Assembly (NCBI GenBank): GCA_027069135.1 | Contig: JALXFE010000181.1 | Coordinates: forward strand, 1 to 64,000 | Source of the DNA: Thermoanaerobaculia bacterium | GTDB lineage: Bacteria > Acidobacteriota > Thermoanaerobaculia > Multivoradales > JAHZIX01 | Length of the DNA: 64,000 bases | Reading direction: 5' to 3' | Shown here: piece after piece, positions 30,832 through 38,321 of the stretch | Numbering within the stretch: position 1 is the first letter of the stretch | Layout of the letters: each line of letters begins with the position of its first letter | Made by a program: the position numbers and the translations under genes | The notes under the pieces: generated by a model | Databases searched by the model: none | Seen by the model: the letters and a program-made list of their open reading frames with translations, nothing else | What the model was told of the DNA's origin: nothing

Positions 30832-31956
30832 CTAGCCTTTTGGGAGAATTGCGGCCAAGGGTAGGCGGACCGTAAACGTAGAACCCTTGCCGAGGGTGCT
30901 CTCGACCTCGAGAGACCCACCGTGGCGATGGACGCCGTGCTTGACGATGGCCAACCCCAGCCCCGTACCGCCCTCGTCTCTCGCCCGCCCCTTGTCCACT
31001 CGGTAGAAGCGCTCGAAGATCCTCTCCTTGGCCTCCGGAGGGATGCCGATACCTGAATCCCGCACTTCCACTACGGCTTCTTCTCCGGACCTCGCCACGC
31101 AGACTCGGATGTTTCCGCCGAGCCGGTTGTATTTGATGGCGTTCTCCAGGAGGTTGAGGAAGATCCGTTCCAACTCTGCGGAATCTCCCTGCACCGGGGA
31201 TGGGGAGTCTTCCAGATCCAATAGGAAGGTCACTTCTCTCGCCCGGGCCTGCGAAGTCAGCACGTCCACGACCTCACGGATCAAGCGCCCCACATCTACC
31301 GTCTCCAAGGTTTGCCCGGAGGATGGCTGGCTCTCGATCTTCGAGAGGGTCAGAAGATCTCCCAAGAGGGCCTCGAGGCGACCGCATTGATTGAGGATCT
31401 GTCGAAGGAAACGCTGGGCCGTGTCCGGCTTGGTGACAGCACCGTCCTCCAAGGTCTCGGCGTACCCTCGAATGGCGGTGAGGGGAGTCTTGAGCTCGTG
31501 GGAGACATTGGCGACCAAATCTTTTCGGGATTCCGCCAATCGAATCGCTTCCGTCACGTCCCGGACGACGATGAGCGCACCGTCCCGGCCCGCACCGTCC
31601 CGGCCTGGCAGGCGAGAGGCCACCAGGGAGAGATGCCGGTGGCCCGGCGGGCCCAGGGTGAGCTCACCCCGCGGCGAATCGACGCCCGCCAAGACGCTCG
31701 CGGTCAGCTCTTTGAGCAACTGCCCCGCTTGAGATGTCGGCTCTACCCCACGGTCGCTCGCATCGAGGAGCTTCCCGAAGAGCTGACGAAAGGCAGGGTT
31801 CATCCTCCGGGCTCGCCCCCCCGTATCGGTGACGGTGACACCTTCCGGCAGATGGTGAAGAATCTCCCGGAGTGAGTCCCGCTCGGATCGAATCCGGTCG
31901 AGCTCCGCATCCCGTGCTCTCAGGGCCCCGCTGCCGAAAAATCGCCGCCAGGCCAT
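30832..31956 (-). CDS. phoR: PhoR-like sensor histidine kinase without membrane segments
   Basis: A 374-residue histidine kinase. A PAS domain (about 35-150, beginning ILHHLPEGVTVTDTGG) precedes the HisKA dimerisation helix with phospho-acceptor His in NVSHELKTPLTAIRGY, and a HATPase_c domain with N-box NLLENAIKYN, G1 DSGIGIPP and G2 GGTGLGLAI. The start overlaps the last base of the phoB stop (TGATG), so translation is coupled. The usual PhoR membrane helices are absent, as the N-terminus MAWRRFFGSGALRARDAELD is polar. It probably reads phosphate status through PhoU and the Pst complex and phosphorylates PhoB. Confidence 0.9.
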   Translation of the reverse strand: MAWRRFFGSGALRARDAELDRIRSERDSLREILHHLPEGVTVTDTGGRARRMNPAFRQLFGKLLDASDRGVEPTSQAGQLLKELTASVLAGVDSPRGELTLGPPGHRHLSLVASRLPGRDGAGRDGALIVVRDVTEAIRLAESRKDLVANVSHELKTPLTAIRGYAETLEDGAVTKPDTAQRFLRQILNQCGRLEALLGDLLTLSKIESQPSSGQTLETVDVGRLIREVVDVLTSQARAREVTFLLDLEDSPSPVQGDSAELERIFLNLLENAIKYNRLGGNIRVCVARSGEEAVVEVRDSGIGIPPEAKERIFERFYRVDKGRARDEGGTGLGLAIVKHGVHRHGGSLEVESTLGKGSTFTVRLPLAAILPKG

Positions 31957-32639
31957 CAGGGACGCATCCGATACCCGACACCGACCACCGTCTCGATCTG
32001 CTGCCCTGCCTCTCCCAGCTTCCCCCGCAGCCGCCGGATATGGGTATCCGCCGTCCGACTCTCGACGTCGTCCGTATAACCCCAAACCTCCTGCAGCAGC
32101 CGAGCTCTCGTCTGAACCCGACCGCTACGCTCCATCAGGATCCGGAGAAGGCGGAACTCCATCGCCGTCAAGACCAGCTCCCCCTCACCCACCCAGGCCC
32201 GGTGGCCCGCGGAGTCCATCCGGATCTTCCCGACTTCGAGCATCTCCGAAGCGTGTTCCGGGAGGGTTCCGCGACGTAGAACCGCTTTGACCCGCAGCAC
32301 AACCTCCCGAGGACTAAAAGGTTTGGTGATGTAGTCATCCGCACCTAACTCGAGGCCGACGATGCGGTCGACCTCCTCATCCTTGGCGGTCAGCATGATG
32401 AAGGGGAGGTGTGCGGTCCGCTGATCTCGCCGTAGATGACGGGCCAAATCGAAACCGTTGAGCCCCGGAAGCATGATGTCGAGCAGGACCAGATCCGGGA
32501 CCCGCTTCGTGATCACCGGCAGGGCCTGGTCCCCTCGCTCCACCACCTGAACCTCGAAGCCGGCTTCGACCAGGTTGTATTCCAGCACTTCGGCGATGGC
32601 GGGCTCGTCTTCTACGAGGATGATTCGATATTGGGTCAA
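31956..32639 (-). CDS. phoB: Phosphate regulon response regulator PhoB
   Basis: A 227-residue OmpR/PhoB-type regulator. The receiver domain has the acidic pair in LVEDEPAI, the phospho-Asp in VLLDIMLPG and the switch Lys in YITKPFSP. The winged-helix domain occupies the C-terminal 100 residues (LTAMEFRLLRILMERSGRVQTRARLL...HIRRLRGKL). The start is TTG with GGAG six bases upstream. It is divergent from pstS, so both promoters share the 190-base region 32640-32833. It should activate the pst operon and phoBR under phosphate limitation. Confidence 0.93.
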   Translation of the reverse strand: MTQYRIILVEDEPAIAEVLEYNLVEAGFEVQVVERGDQALPVITKRVPDLVLLDIMLPGLNGFDLARHLRRDQRTAHLPFIMLTAKDEEVDRIVGLELGADDYITKPFSPREVVLRVKAVLRRGTLPEHASEMLEVGKIRMDSAGHRAWVGEGELVLTAMEFRLLRILMERSGRVQTRARLLQEVWGYTDDVESRTADTHIRRLRGKLGEAGQQIETVVGVGYRMRP

Positions 32640-32833: not shown

Positions 32834-33736
32834 ATGTTGCGATCATCCCTTTCCGCCTTCACTGCAGGCGCCGCCTTTAGCCTCCTGATCTTGGCCGCTT
32901 GTGGCCGCCCCGCAGACAACGGCACTTCGAGTGGCCGTACCCTGATCCAGAACAAAGGATCCGATACCCTGGTCAATGTCGCCCAGGCCTGGGCCGAGAA
33001 CTACAAGGAAGTGGACCCCACCGTCGCCGTCGCCGTCAGTGGCGGAGGCTCCGGAACCGGCATTTCGGCCATGATCAACGGCACCGTCGACATCGCCAAC
33101 GCCAGCCGAGCGATGAAGGACAAGGAAATCGAAGCTGCCCGCGGCAACGGCATCGACCCGATCCAACATGTGGTGGGTTTCGATGCCCTCGCCGTCTACC
33201 TCAATCACGACAACCCAGCCCAGTCCCTCAGTCTGGCTCAGTTGGTCGAAATCTACGCTGAAGGCGGTTCTGCCGAAAAGTGGAGCGACCTAGGGATCTC
33301 CATCCCCGGCTGCCCGAGCGACGAAATCGTCCGCATCAGCCGCCAGAACAACTCCGGGACCTACGCCTACTTCCAGTCGAGGGTCCTCGGAAAAGGCAAA
33401 GACTTCAAACTCGGATCTCGGGATATGCACGGCTCCAAGGATGTCGTGGACCTGGTCGAGCACACCCCCTGCGCCATCGGCTACAGCGGCCTCGCCTACG
33501 CCACACCAGAAGTGAAATTGGCCTGCATCGGCGAGGACGCAGAAAGCTGCGTCGAGCCTTCCGTCGAGGCCGCCGTCGACGGAAGCTACCCCATCGCCCG
33601 ACCGCTCTTCATGTACACCTCCGGCCAGCCGGAAGGAGCTGTCGCGGCCTACCTCCAGTGGATTCTGAGCGACGCCGGCCAATGCATCATTAAGAATAAA
33701 GGCTACGCCCCGGCGGCTCCCGTGAGCTGTAGCTAG
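32834..33736 (+). CDS. pstS: Phosphate-binding lipoprotein PstS
   Basis: A 300-residue periplasmic phosphate-binding protein. A lipoprotein signal peptide ends at LAAC with lipidated Cys23. Phosphate-binding loops are visible: QNKGSDTLVN, SGGGSGTGI, ANASRAM, RQNNSGTYAYF. TAAGGAGG lies upstream. First gene of a pst operon whose members are separated by short gaps or overlaps to 38246. It delivers phosphate to PstC/PstA. Confidence 0.95.
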   Translation: MLRSSLSAFTAGAAFSLLILAACGRPADNGTSSGRTLIQNKGSDTLVNVAQAWAENYKEVDPTVAVAVSGGGSGTGISAMINGTVDIANASRAMKDKEIEAARGNGIDPIQHVVGFDALAVYLNHDNPAQSLSLAQLVEIYAEGGSAEKWSDLGISIPGCPSDEIVRISRQNNSGTYAYFQSRVLGKGKDFKLGSRDMHGSKDVVDLVEHTPCAIGYSGLAYATPEVKLACIGEDAESCVEPSVEAAVDGSYPIARPLFMYTSGQPEGAVAAYLQWILSDAGQCIIKNKGYAPAAPVSCS

Positions 33737-33770: not shown

Positions 33771-34862
33771 ATGAGCCATTACGAAGAACGGCTGGAAGCC
33801 GACCTGAAACGCTTACGCCAGAGGACCCACACGATCGGCCTGAAGGTCCTCGAGGCCCAGAAGAACGCCGTACAGGCAATTCTTGGCGGGGATCGCACCC
33901 TCGCTTACGAAACCATTCTGGGAGATCTCGCCGTCAACCGGGAGATCCGCTCCATCGACAAGGCCTGCCACGCCTTCGTGGCCCAGCACCTACCGAGCGC
34001 CGGCCACCTGCGCTTCGTCTCTTCGGTGCTACGGCTCAATGTCGGCTTGGAACGGATCGGCGATTATGCGGCGACCCTTTCCCGGCTGGCGGTCAAGCTT
34101 TCTTCACCCCCACCGTCGGCCATGGTGGGCGATATCCAACTGATGGCGGATCAAAGTCAGAGGGTTCTCAAGCAGGCCCTCAAGGCCTGGGACGAAGGCA
34201 ACGCCGATCTCGCCCGGGGGACCCTCGGGATGGCCCGCCAGGCGGCGAGCGCTTACGACAAGACCTTCGCGGATCTCCTGCGGGAGGGCACACAAGGCTC
34301 CCGCCCCATCGGCGACCTCTTCGCTCTTCAGGTCGTCCTCAACCGTCTCGACCGGGTCGTCGCCCAGGCGAAGAATATCTGCGAAGAGACCCTCTTCACC
34401 ATCACCGGCGAGACCAAGACGCCAAAGGTCTACCGGGTGCTCTTCGTGGACCGCCGCAACGATTGCGACAGCCAGCTCGCCGCCGCCTACGCCCGCAAGG
34501 CCTTTCCGGAGAGCGGCGCCTACTCCAGCGCCGGCTGGGAGCCCGCGGAAGCTCTGGACCCGCGATGCCACCTCTTCATGGAACGCCACGGCCTCGACAC
34601 CGACGATCTAGTGCCGACCCCTCTGAACCGTCAACGGGATGCCCTCAACCAATTCCACGTCATCGTCAGCCTGGGAGGGGACCTACGGCCCCAGGTCGAA
34701 GATCTGCCCTTCCATGCCGTGGTTCTCGAGTGGGATCTGGGAGGGCGCCTCGAGGGTCTCGATCAGGAACGAGCCGAGAGGCTTCTAGAGGATCTCTACA
34801 AGGACATCGCGTCGCGGGTTCGGGACTTGATGGAAGCCCTGCGCGGCGAAGGAGCCTCCTGA
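33771..34862 (+). CDS. phoU: PhoU fused to a degenerate low-molecular-weight phosphatase-like domain
   Basis: A 363-residue fusion. Residues 1 to about 215 are PhoU, with two three-helix bundles, and the metal-site-like LRLNVGLERIGDYAATLSRL and LNRLDRVVAQAKNICEE. Residues about 220-355 resemble a low-molecular-weight protein tyrosine phosphatase or arsenate reductase (YRVLFVDRRNDCDSQLAAAYAR, SAGWEP, IVSLGG). In active enzymes the P-loop is CxxNxCR. Here the nucleophile Cys position is Asp227 and the Arg is Asp233, so catalysis by the standard mechanism is not possible. A sensory or binding role is more likely. PhoU-phosphatase fusions are known in several phyla; the loss of both catalytic residues is notable. 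Confidence 0.85.
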   Translation: MSHYEERLEADLKRLRQRTHTIGLKVLEAQKNAVQAILGGDRTLAYETILGDLAVNREIRSIDKACHAFVAQHLPSAGHLRFVSSVLRLNVGLERIGDYAATLSRLAVKLSSPPPSAMVGDIQLMADQSQRVLKQALKAWDEGNADLARGTLGMARQAASAYDKTFADLLREGTQGSRPIGDLFALQVVLNRLDRVVAQAKNICEETLFTITGETKTPKVYRVLFVDRRNDCDSQLAAAYARKAFPESGAYSSAGWEPAEALDPRCHLFMERHGLDTDDLVPTPLNRQRDALNQFHVIVSLGGDLRPQVEDLPFHAVVLEWDLGGRLEGLDQERAERLLEDLYKDIASRVRDLMEALRGEGAS

Positions 34863-34863
34863 G

Positions 34864-35784
34864 ATGGCTCAGGGTATCGCCAAGGCGCCGCTCCCGGACC
34901 AACGCAATCTGGCCTGGTACGTCGACAAGACGGTTCAGGTCCTGGTCTTCGTCGGCGGGATCTCCGCCATTCTCCTGATTTTGGGGATCTTCGTCTTCAT
35001 CACCAAAGAGGGCATGGGCTTCATCACCCAGACCTTAGACATCGGTGAGTTCTTCACCTCTCCCAATTGGCGGCCGACCTCCGAGAACCGGCCGACCTAC
35101 GGAGCTCTGGCCCTGATCGCCGGCACCGCCAGCGTCACCGGTCTCGCCATGCTCGTGGCCGTGCCCTTCTCCCTGGGAGCGGCGATCTTCATCGGGGAGT
35201 TCGCCACCGGCAAGACACGGGAGATTCTCAAGATCTTAGTCGAGATGCTCGCCGCCATCCCTTCGGTGGTCTGGGGGTTCATCGGCCTTTCGATCATGAA
35301 CCCGCTGATCATCGACCTCTTCAACGTGCCGGTGGGCTTGAACGTCCTCAACTCCGGCCTGATTCTGGGCCTCATGGCGGCACCGATCATGACCACACTC
35401 GCGGAAGATGCCTTGAAGGCGGTGCCCGACGGCTACCGGGAAGCTGCCGAGGCCATGGGCGCCACCCGCTGGCAGGTAATCTTCCGGGTGGTCTTCCCGG
35501 CGGCCAAGAACGGTCTGGTCGCCGCCGTATTGCTCGGGGTTGGCCGTGGTTTCGGAGAGACCATGGCGGTACTCATGGCCAGTGGCCACTCCATCAACAT
35601 TCCCACCAGCCCCTTCGATTCGGTGCGGGCCCTGACCGCCACCATCGCCGCGGAGTTGGGGGAGACCGCCGTGGGATCGGATCATTACCGGGCACTCTTT
35701 ACTCTCGGCATCTTCCTGTTCGCCATCACCTTTCTTATCAATCTCACCGCCGACCTGGTGGTGCGCGGCCCCCGGAAGCGCTAG
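34864..35784 (+). CDS. pstC: Phosphate ABC transporter permease PstC
   Basis: A 306-residue inner-membrane permease with six membrane segments. The ABC-coupling EAA loop is PDGYREAAEAMGATRWQVIFRVVFP shortened here to its key part EAAEAMGATRWQ. It starts two bases after the PhoU stop and is followed two bases on by pstA. It pairs with PstA to form the phosphate channel. Confidence 0.95.
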   Translation: MAQGIAKAPLPDQRNLAWYVDKTVQVLVFVGGISAILLILGIFVFITKEGMGFITQTLDIGEFFTSPNWRPTSENRPTYGALALIAGTASVTGLAMLVAVPFSLGAAIFIGEFATGKTREILKILVEMLAAIPSVVWGFIGLSIMNPLIIDLFNVPVGLNVLNSGLILGLMAAPIMTTLAEDALKAVPDGYREAAEAMGATRWQVIFRVVFPAAKNGLVAAVLLGVGRGFGETMAVLMASGHSINIPTSPFDSVRALTATIAAELGETAVGSDHYRALFTLGIFLFAITFLINLTADLVVRGPRKR

Positions 35785-35786
35785 CG

Positions 35787-36656
35787 ATGTTCGAAGCAAC
35801 CGAGCTCAATCACCGCAACCAACGCACGGAAAAGCTGTGGCGGTTGCTCTTCCTCATGATGACCTTGCTCCTGATTCTTCCAGTAGCGGTCATCCTGACG
35901 GTCCTGGTGGTCAAGGGCGGGCCTTCCCTCTCCATCGACTTCCTTTTCACGGAGCCAACCCAGGGGATGACCGCCGGAGGGATCCTACCGGCCCTGGTGG
36001 GAACCGTCTGGCTGGTGGTCGTGGCGCTGATCGCCTCGGTGCCCATCGGGGTTGCCGCTGCCCTCTACCTCTCTGAATACGCCCCGGACAACTGGCTCAC
36101 CCGCATCATCAACCTGGCCATCATCAATCTGGCAGGCGTTCCCTCCATCGTCCACGCCCTCTTCGGCGTCGGTGCCTTCGTAGCCTTCTTTCGCTTTGGA
36201 ACGAGCATCTTGGCCGCCAGCCTGACTCTCGCGGTGATGACTCTCCCGGTTGTCATCGTCTCCACTCGGGAAGCCTTGAAAGCGGTGCCCCAAGCCTTCC
36301 GGGAGGCCTGTTGGAATATGGGCGCCACCCGCTGGCAGACCATCCGAAAAGTGGTTCTTCCGAACTCCGTGAGCGGAATCTTGACCGGAGTGATCCTCGA
36401 GGTATCGCGGACCGCCGGCGAGACGGCGCCTATCATGTTTACCGGGGCGGCCTTCTTTCTACCCTTCTTGCCCCAGAGTGTCTACGACCAGACCATGGCC
36501 CTATCACTCCACCTCTTCGTGGTCTCGACCCAAGTACCCGATGTACCGGAGGGACTCCCCTTCGGTGTCGCGCTGGTATTGATCGGCCTGGTGCTCTCGA
36601 TGAACGCGGTTTCGATTGGCTTTCGCATGGTCCTACGGGGGAAGAAAAAGTGGTAA
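35787..36656 (+). CDS. pstA: Phosphate ABC transporter permease PstA
   Basis: A 289-residue permease with six membrane segments and the coupling loop FREACWNMGATRWQTI. The frame is open far upstream of 35787 but that part lies over pstC; the ATG two bases after the pstC stop gives the family's normal N-terminus. It overlaps the start of the first pstB by seven bases. Confidence 0.95.
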   Translation: MFEATELNHRNQRTEKLWRLLFLMMTLLLILPVAVILTVLVVKGGPSLSIDFLFTEPTQGMTAGGILPALVGTVWLVVVALIASVPIGVAAALYLSEYAPDNWLTRIINLAIINLAGVPSIVHALFGVGAFVAFFRFGTSILAASLTLAVMTLPVVIVSTREALKAVPQAFREACWNMGATRWQTIRKVVLPNSVSGILTGVILEVSRTAGETAPIMFTGAAFFLPFLPQSVYDQTMALSLHLFVVSTQVPDVPEGLPFGVALVLIGLVLSMNAVSIGFRMVLRGKKKW

Positions 36657-37426
36657 CACCTACCCGAGATCGCCAGCCGAAGGTTCAGGTTCGTGATCTG
36701 TCGATTCATTACGGTGGCAAGGCCGCTCTGGCCGGGGCCACCTTCGAGATCCACGAACACGAGATCTTCGGCATCATCGGCCCCGCCGGGAGCGGCAAGA
36801 CCTCGTTCCTTCGCGCCATGAACCGCATGGATCTCTTCAACCCCGCCATGGAGGTGGGAGGCGAAATCTCCATGGACGGAAAAGACGTCCGCAAATGGAA
36901 GAACGTCTACGCCCTGCGGCGGCGTATCGGGGTGGTCTTTCCCCTCCCCGTCGGTCTGCCGATGTCGATCTACGAAAACGTCGCCCTGGCCCCCCGCCTC
37001 GGTGGCACACGCAAACGGGCGGATCTCGATGTCATCGTCGAGCGATGCCTCACCCGCGCCGCTCTCTGGGACGAAGTCAAGGATCGCCTGGATTCCTTGG
37101 GAAGCCTTCTCTCCGGCGGTCAGCAACAGCGCCTGACCATCGCTCGGGCGCTCTCCCAGGAACCGGAATTGCTCCTCCTGGATGAGTTCTCGATCGCCGT
37201 AGACCCGGTGACCACGATGAAGATCGAAGATGTTCTCAAAGAGCTCCGCCAGGAGCTGACGATCGTCCTGGTGACCAATCTCGTCCAACAGGCGCGCCGC
37301 CTTGCAGACCGAACCGCGTTCTTTCTCACGGGAGAATTGGTGGAGGTGGCCCCTACCGAAGATCTGTTTACCGGCGGAGCCAGCGACGAGCGCACCACCG
37401 CCTACGTGGAGGGTCGTTTTGGTTGA
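36650..37426 (+). CDS. pstB: Phosphate ABC transporter ATPase PstB1 with degenerate catalytic residues
   Basis: A 258-residue PstB-like ATPase. Walker A GPAGSGKT (residues 44-51), signature LSGGQ (154-158) and Walker B LLLLDE (174-179) are intact. The Q-loop Gln of PstB (VFQKPNPFPMS) is replaced by Pro98 (VFPLPVGLPMS), and the switch His (VTHN) by Asn210 (VTNL). The D-loop region reads FSIAVDP instead of PTSALDP. Such losses prevent normal hydrolysis at its own ATP site, but its signature can complete the site of a partner. GTG start with GGGGAAG upstream, overlapping pstA. It probably pairs with the second PstB encoded directly downstream. Confidence 0.9.
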   Translation: MVTPTRDRQPKVQVRDLSIHYGGKAALAGATFEIHEHEIFGIIGPAGSGKTSFLRAMNRMDLFNPAMEVGGEISMDGKDVRKWKNVYALRRRIGVVFPLPVGLPMSIYENVALAPRLGGTRKRADLDVIVERCLTRAALWDEVKDRLDSLGSLLSGGQQQRLTIARALSQEPELLLLDEFSIAVDPVTTMKIEDVLKELRQELTIVLVTNLVQQARRLADRTAFFLTGELVEVAPTEDLFTGGASDERTTAYVEGRFG

Positions 37427-38246
37427 CCTAGAGACACTTCCCGAGGAACCGTCGGAGTCTGCGGCGCCGGAAGTGGACATTGTCCACGCCATCGAGACCC
37501 GTAAGCTCAATCTCTGGTACGGCACTTTCCAGGCGATCTTTGATGTCGACCTGGAGGTGAAACACAACCTGATCACCTCCATGATAGGACCCTCCGGCTG
37601 CGGCAAATCGACATTCTTGAGGTGCTGCAACCGCATCAACGAACGCCTCGGCTACGTTCGGACCACCGGCGCCGTAGAAATCCTCGGCCACGATATCTAC
37701 GCCCCGGAAGTCGAGCTGATCCAGGTCCGCAAGCAAGTGGGCATGGTCTTCCAGCGGCCCAACCCTTTGCCCCTTTCCATCCGCGACAACATCCTCTTCG
37801 GCGCCCGCCTCCACGATCCCGAAGCCGCCAAGGCGAGCCGGGCTGCTCAGGATGACATCGTAGAGAAGGCCCTGACTCGGGTTCTACTGTGGGATACCGT
37901 CAAGGACCGCTTGGGGCACAGCGCCCGAGAGCTTTCCCTCGAAGAACAGCAGAAGCTCTGCATCGCCCGCCTGCTACCCGTACAACCGAAAGTCCTCCTC
38001 ATGGACGAGCCTTGCTCCGCCCTCGACCCCAAAGGAACCGAGGCCGTCGAGGAGCTGATCTGGGAGCTGCGGGAGGCCTACACCATCCTCATCGTCACTC
38101 ACAACATGGCCCAGGCCCGGCGAGCCAGTGACGAATGCATCTTCATGCTCCACGGCAAGGTCGTCGAGCACACCAAAACAGCGGAGATGTTCGTCACTCC
38201 CATCCACAAAGAAACCGCGGACTACATCGAGGGTAGGTACGGGTAG
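37419..38246 (+). CDS. pstB: Phosphate ABC transporter ATPase PstB2 with degenerate signature
   Basis: A 275-residue PstB-like ATPase. Walker A GPSGCGKST (57-65), Q-loop Gln112 (VFQRPNPLPLS), Walker B KVLLMDE (191-197) with catalytic Glu197, and switch His228 (IVTHNM) are all intact. The ABC signature is LSLEE (172-176) instead of LSGGQ. The TTG start at 37419 overlaps pstB1 by eight bases and has GGAGGG five bases upstream. The losses are complementary to those in PstB1, suggesting an obligate heterodimer with one competent ATP site. Confidence 0.88.
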   Translation: MVDLETLPEEPSESAAPEVDIVHAIETRKLNLWYGTFQAIFDVDLEVKHNLITSMIGPSGCGKSTFLRCCNRINERLGYVRTTGAVEILGHDIYAPEVELIQVRKQVGMVFQRPNPLPLSIRDNILFGARLHDPEAAKASRAAQDDIVEKALTRVLLWDTVKDRLGHSARELSLEEQQKLCIARLLPVQPKVLLMDEPCSALDPKGTEAVEELIWELREAYTILIVTHNMAQARRASDECIFMLHGKVVEHTKTAEMFVTPIHKETADYIEGRYG

Positions 38247-38300: not shown

Positions 38301-38321
38301 GTGGTACCACCACGATCGTGG
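38301..38321 (+). promoter_or_regulatory. Overlapping palindromes, toxin-antitoxin operator
   Basis: GTGGTACCAC (38301-38310) and CCACGATCGTGG (38310-38321) are both perfect palindromes sharing one base. They lie about 50 bases before the Phd-type antitoxin start. This is typical of a conditional-cooperativity operator, bound by antitoxin and toxin-antitoxin complexes. The role is inferred. Confidence 0.6.

Follow-up and report, generated by a model that had tools for sequence, protein, structure and literature searches.

The fusion gene and its operon

The window analyzed here, a stretch of 64,000 nucleotides from a Thermoanaerobaculia bacterium (contig JALXFE010000181.1), carries a pst operon with the gene order pstS, phoU*, pstC, pstA, pstB1 and pstB2, in which phoU* denotes a gene encoding a PhoU protein fused to a second, C-terminal domain; a phoB-like and a phoR-like gene are placed divergently from the operon (Table 1). 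The phoU* gene lies 34 bases past pstS and 1 base ahead of pstC, and its reading frame extends from an ATG to the stop codon with no internal stops. The phoR-like ORF overlaps the end of phoB. Just 3' of the operon, between positions 38318 and 39998, there are short ORFs that by eye resemble an antitoxin and two PIN-domain-type proteins (VapBC-like).

Table 1. Features of the pst locus, in coordinates of the window
Feature	Position	Strand	Basis
phoR-like PAS/HisKA/HATPase kinase, no predicted membrane helix	30832..32085	-	domain matches; hydropathy
phoB-like response regulator, divergent	31956..32639	-	Response_reg + Trans_reg_C
pstS, phosphate-binding protein	32834..33736	+	PBP_like_2 E=4e-42; pstS in same position in relatives
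phoU-pseudoArsC fusion gene (phoU*), 363 aa	33771..34862	+	ORF/translation; Pfam PhoU + LMWPc; AlphaFold2 pLDDT 93.3
PhoU domain, residues 1-215	33771..34415	+	Pfam; Foldseek 4q25, TM by target 0.94
pseudo-arsenate-reductase/LMW-phosphatase-fold domain, residues 218-363	34422..34859	+	Pfam LMWPc; ArsC NCBIfam; Foldseek 1lk0, TM by target 0.84
degenerate P-loop DRRNDCDS for CxxNxCRS, residues 227-234	34449..34472	+	translation; alignments with active and intermediate fusions
pstC, permease	34864..35784	+	BPD_transp_1; adjoins fusion in relatives also
pstA, permease	35787..36656	+	BPD_transp_1
pstB1	36650..37426	+	TIGR00972; GTG start assigned by eye
pstB2	37419..38246	+	TIGR00972; TTG start assigned by eye

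The N-terminal part of the protein matches PhoU in Pfam (E=1.9e-16) in two stretches that correspond to the two PhoU helical repeats, and it matches TIGR02135 with E=1.7e-32, although its 112.8 bits fall below the equivalog cut-off of 130.25, which is passed by the relatives at loci L034, L131, L133 and L136. With the known members of the family (PF01895/TIGR02135; Pseudomonas aeruginosa PhoU, 4q25) it shares the two helical repeats, the fold, the association with a pst operon and the metal motif of the first repeat, which is intact (E94-R-I-G-D98). In contrast to 4q25, it carries an extra C-terminal domain with an enzyme fold, its gene is placed between pstS and pstC, and the second metal motif is degraded, D194...A198 being present where the majority of the relatives have E...D; among 88 relatives, site 198 holds Asp 55 times, His 20 times and Ala 10 times.

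For the C-terminal domain, the Pfam model LMWPc matches residues 223-310 with E=9.5e-5, just below threshold (23.1 bits, the cut-off being 23.2), and NCBIfam models of ArsC-type arsenate reductases (TIGR02691/TIGR02689 type) match with E about 1e-5. The fusion protein was modelled by AlphaFold2 as a single chain from 82 homologues (mean pLDDT 93.3, pTM 0.82), and for the C-terminal part of the protein Foldseek placed the ArsC of pI258 ahead of the LMW-PTPs (TM by target of 0.84 and about 0.68, respectively). The closest family of the domain is the ArsC-type arsenate reductase and not a generic LMW phosphatase. The preliminary description of this DNA had proposed a PhoU with a phosphatase-like domain in which Asp227 and Asp233 occupy the places of the Cys and the Arg, and on this point the reading frame, Pfam, the alignments and the structural comparison agree.

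A search among related genomes contributed 12 full-length fusions, and 80 fusion loci, nearly all of them in MAGs, came from a scan that covered 84,980 species genomes; their titles name Planctomycetota, Acidobacteriota, Gammaproteobacteria, Accumulibacter, Myxococcota, Thermodesulfobacteriota, Nitrospirales and others. A scan of 396 genomes of the phylum of the window, together with two class scans, added clade B, the sister of the clade that includes the window (clade A), and clade C, one independent fusion. In clade A the order pstS-phoU*-pstC-pstA-pstB1-pstB2 is present in all loci of sufficient length; in clade B the fusion is located upstream of pstS (six regions read), and in clade C it is downstream of a single canonical pstB. 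The fusion is the sole PhoU match in the genome of the window, which has a second, ordinary pst locus (L149) with no PhoU within the stretch read; similarly, 7 of the 12 related fusion-bearing genomes have no additional PhoU match. The source genome is a draft assembly in 626 contigs, which could favor the view that the fusion is an artefact of assembly or of the gene model, such as two neighbouring genes merged into one. Nonetheless, this view is already refuted by about 107 full-length homologues that show a single open frame and share the linker, and its probability is practically nil.

Loss of catalytic residues and origin of the fusion

The P-loop of the window protein, D227-R-R-N230-D-C232-D233-S234, aligns column for column with the CxxNxCRS of two active-looking fusions and with 18 members of clade B. 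With ArsC (TIGR02691/TIGR02689; pI258 ArsC; thioredoxin/glutaredoxin-type) and LMW-PTP the domain shares the fold, the position of the P-loop and its Asn and Ser, and it differs from them in that the Cys is replaced by Asp and that the Arg, the general-acid Asp-Pro loop (WDLGGR is found instead) and the resolving Cys of ArsC are absent. In the final alignment, 84 of the 89 members of clade A carry Asp in place of the Cys, 5 retain the Arg and 2 the Asp-Pro loop; for clade B (n=18) the corresponding counts are 18, 12 and 13, and both members of clade C have the Cys, the Arg and the Asp-Pro. The nucleophilic Cys of the P-loop was found in none of the 89 clade A and 18 clade B proteins aligned. 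Given that about 107 homologues have the same architecture and nearly all of them carry the Asp, its presence is not due to chance. A P-loop elsewhere in the domain was also looked for and rejected: C266, which lies outside the P-loop, is the only other Cys of the domain, and thus no alternative active site was seen. As the preliminary description had put forward, the domain is, as judged from its residues, a pseudoenzyme that has lost catalysis.

A different possibility is that some altered catalysis persists, with Asp227 acting as a nucleophile that forms an aspartyl-phosphate. Asp is nearly invariant at this position, and it acts as nucleophile in other phosphatase superfamilies. However, clade A lacks the Arg, the Asp-Pro loop and the cysteines of the ArsC type, and the replacement of the catalytic Cys by Asp inactivates the phosphatase PRL (PMC12192612); we consider residual catalysis highly improbable.

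It had also been proposed that two acidic residues would repel phosphate. Asp233 is private to the window (1 of 89 in clade A), and the trait of the family is the replacement of the Arg by L, A, V, P, Q and other residues; since D227 is the only acidic residue that is conserved, repulsion of phosphate finds no support as a general logic, and D227 would more plausibly be a mimic of the thiolate or a plug of the anion site.

The origin of the fusion was approached with two phylogenies. A maximum likelihood tree was obtained from the PhoU part alone, so that the trait columns were unable to drive the topology; in it, clades A and B are together with a support of 100/100, and both the 32 unfused PhoUs and clade C fall outside them. 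In a tree of the C-terminal domain that included stand-alone enzymes, and for which the bootstrap had not fully settled, A and B are joined with 99/97 and are placed on the arsenate-reductase side of the split from LMW-PTP (98/97), while clade C groups beside stand-alone ArsC. Given that A and B form one clade in the PhoU tree, a single fusion event with the Asp already present is indicated. The simplest reading is that the defect would be ancestral: one fusion in the common ancestor of A and B, already with the Asp, followed by repeated loss of the Arg, a site at which the PhoU tree requires 8 changes, 5 inside clade A.

The fusion in clade C (L141, L225) is, according to both trees, a separate event. 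It shares with the window the combination of PhoU with a C-terminal domain of the same type and the location in a pst operon; it differs in its intact P-loop (CVHNSARS), the DP loop, the VITLC cysteine and the single canonical PstB. Active forms of a PhoU-LMWP fusion had been suggested by the preliminary description as something to look for in an alignment; active-looking ones exist, but by independent fusion, and the lineage of the window has had the Asp since fusing. An active ancestor inside the A/B lineage was also sought and none was found. A PhoU fused independently to an intact, active-looking arsenate reductase is encoded at L150:9898-11013 (genome G166), in a canonical pst operon with a single PstB, and at L225.

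The strength of selection was estimated from 48 pairs with unsaturated dS, which overlap within eight groups of relatives and are therefore not independent; the median dN/dS was 0.21 for the domain and 0.13 for PhoU, and the highest value for the domain was 0.58. These values indicate that the C-terminal domain is under purifying selection. With regard to single positions, F225, A237 and W321 are invariant, and G359, D227 and N230 are conserved in 99%, 94% and 87% of the sequences, respectively. A lineage-specific accident or a pseudogene was rejected on account of the about 107 homologues and the dN/dS of about 0.2.

The asymmetric PstB1/PstB2 pair

The two ATPases encoded at the end of the operon have lost different motifs. 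In PstB1 the Gln of the Q-loop is replaced by Pro and the His of the H-loop by Asn in all 65 copies that could be aligned, with LSGGQ intact; the window copy has in addition SIAVD for SALD. In PstB2 the signature LSGG is replaced by LSLE in 64 of 64 copies (LSLEE for LSGGQ in the window), whereas Walker A, the Q-loop and the H-loop are intact, as is Walker B in the window protein. The pair of clade B follows the same scheme, with LQLEQ. The NBDs of ABC transporters pair head-to-tail, and this arrangement together with the complementary loss of motifs suggests that the Walker, Q and H motifs of PstB2 and the signature of PstB1 would form one complete ATP site, the other site being degenerate. 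The presence of an asymmetric PstB pair in the same operon, indicated in the preliminary description, is thus real and family-wide. The pair (36650-38246 in the window) is invariant over about 65 operons and is arguably of greater novelty than the PhoU fusion.

At each inspected locus of sufficient length, the fusions of clades A and B have the asymmetric pair in the operon. Within the 396-genome sample, 17 of the 20 genomes with an A/B fusion hold a protein of the PstB1 type, and in the other 3 the fusion is on a short contig; among the matches listed for this sample, no A/B fusion was present outside those 20 genomes. Proteins of the PstB1 type with more than 300 bits were detected in 36 genomes, 17 of them with an A/B fusion. 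Operons with PstB1 and without the fusion are found in 14 genomes of one genus (g5) and in G145, G119 and G386, which have an ordinary PhoU near the operon; as judged from the DNA retrieved, the fusion is also missing beside the pair in G281. In the three genomes of g5 that were inspected out of the 14 (L186-L188) there is no phoU in the asymmetric pst operon, and most genomes of this genus have an ordinary PhoU elsewhere. A strict dependence of the pair on the fusion was thus rejected: the fusion accompanies the pair and the pair is independent of the fusion, from which it follows that this transporter can do without the domain. In G119, a third and strongly degenerate PstB-like ORF (L191:603-1337; signature GLTTSMILQ, H-loop ATND) adjoins PstB1 and PstB2.

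The tandem pstB1/pstB2 of Enterococcus faecalis, the only tandem PstB for which functional studies were found in the open-access literature, resembles the pair described here in that the two genes are adjacent and have unequal roles (PMC12096839). It was rejected as a precedent given that its PstBs keep all the motifs compared (PMC12096839), whereas those of the window each lack complementary ones.

Proposed role of the C-terminal domain

PhoU contacts PstB and PhoR, and in E. coli locked conformations of PstB set the Pho signal (PMC5775613); in PhoR, it is the PAS and kinase domains that are contacted by PhoU (PMC9239213). An analogous case of a phosphatase fold that binds a transporter is that of PRL/PTP4A and CNNM, in which the change of the catalytic Cys to Asp preserves the size and charge of the thiolate and abolishes catalysis while binding to the transporter is kept (PMC12192612). 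The domain described here has in common with it the Cys to Asp change and, putatively, the use of a cysteine-phosphatase P-loop as a surface for binding a transporter; it differs in that PRL belongs to an unrelated phosphatase family, is an animal protein and is separate rather than a fused domain.

We propose that an ancestor of the ArsC-type arsenate reductase/LMW phosphatase kind was fused to PhoU once, before the split of clades A and B, and that the Cys would have changed to Asp first, as it is common to both clades, the Arg of the P-loop and the Asp-Pro loop being lost afterwards, mainly in clade A. Asp227 may substitute for the catalytic thiolate or mimic a bound anion, and together with the retained Asn230 and Ser234 it would fix the P-loop in a shape similar to the ligand-bound one. 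The domain could then serve permanently as a docking surface and give PhoU an additional contact with the PstB1/PstB2 heterodimer or with PhoR, so that PhoU would sense the state of an ATPase in which one site is complete and the other degenerate. By analogy with the systems mentioned above, the domain would bind a partner and transmit the state of the transporter. A binding or regulatory module, as the preliminary description anticipated, is the most likely reading. For the specific proposal, that the fusion serves as PhoU in a separate subtype of Pst with heterodimeric NBDs and that its C-terminal domain is a conserved non-catalytic docking or regulatory module for a partner that would be found in this complex, we judge the chances to be even.

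The faster evolution of the domain as compared with PhoU speaks against docking and is what is expected of a structural relic, that is, a domain whose sole role is to stabilize PhoU or its oligomer, without a partner in regulation. The conserved sites are partly core-like (F225, W321, G255, P313), and the same transporter occurs in one genus that has no fusion, which also agrees with a relic. On the other hand, the domain has been retained over an ancient span and in several phyla with a dN/dS of about 0.2, and the polar residues D227 and N230 were held while the Arg was lost, so that we regard a mere relic as unlikely. It may also be conceived that the P-loop acts as a binding site for phosphate, arsenate or a phosphorylated metabolite that is not turned over, and signals this binding to PhoU, given that the P-loop fold is retained, that it descends from a fold that binds arsenate or phosphate, and that most members of clade B keep the Arg and the DP loop. 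Nevertheless, Asp occupies the anion site, the Arg is gone in clade A, including the window, and the window has a second acidic residue, D233; a ligand sensor therefore seems to us quite improbable.

The docking module would be one part of the rebuilt phosphate-sensing complex that was suggested for this operon, a suggestion that holds for the association of the PhoU fusion with the PstB1/PstB2 heterodimer, bearing in mind that the pair also occurs fusion-free, but does not extend to PhoR. The PhoR of the window does lack membrane helices, as had been described (peak 19-residue hydropathy of 0.57, no hydrophobic N-terminal segment); however, the PhoRs that adjoin the operon in the relatives have for the most part hydrophobic N-termini, and the feature was rejected as a family trait.

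In the open-access literature we found no description of a fusion of PhoU with LMWPc/ArsC or of a degenerate PstB pair; subscription papers were outside this search, and novelty is in consequence provisional. More tentatively, and with less than even confidence, the Pst of clades A and B may have an obligate PstB1/PstB2 heterodimer with one live site, whose motor state would be recognized by the pseudo-arsenate-reductase of PhoU; it would be an undescribed system that spans several phyla and a bacterial counterpart of the control of transporters by pseudophosphatases. The way in which PhoU reads the Pst transporter and signals to PhoR has been an open problem for many years, and a naturally split ATPase would allow either half to be mutated alone, unlike the usual PstB homodimer. 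The series formed by Cys with Arg (clade C, independent), Asp with Arg (most of clade B) and Asp without Arg (clade A) would illustrate the decay of a pseudoenzyme with the intermediate still extant. The operon is also present in Candidatus Accumulibacter, a polyphosphate accumulator in the removal of phosphorus from wastewater.
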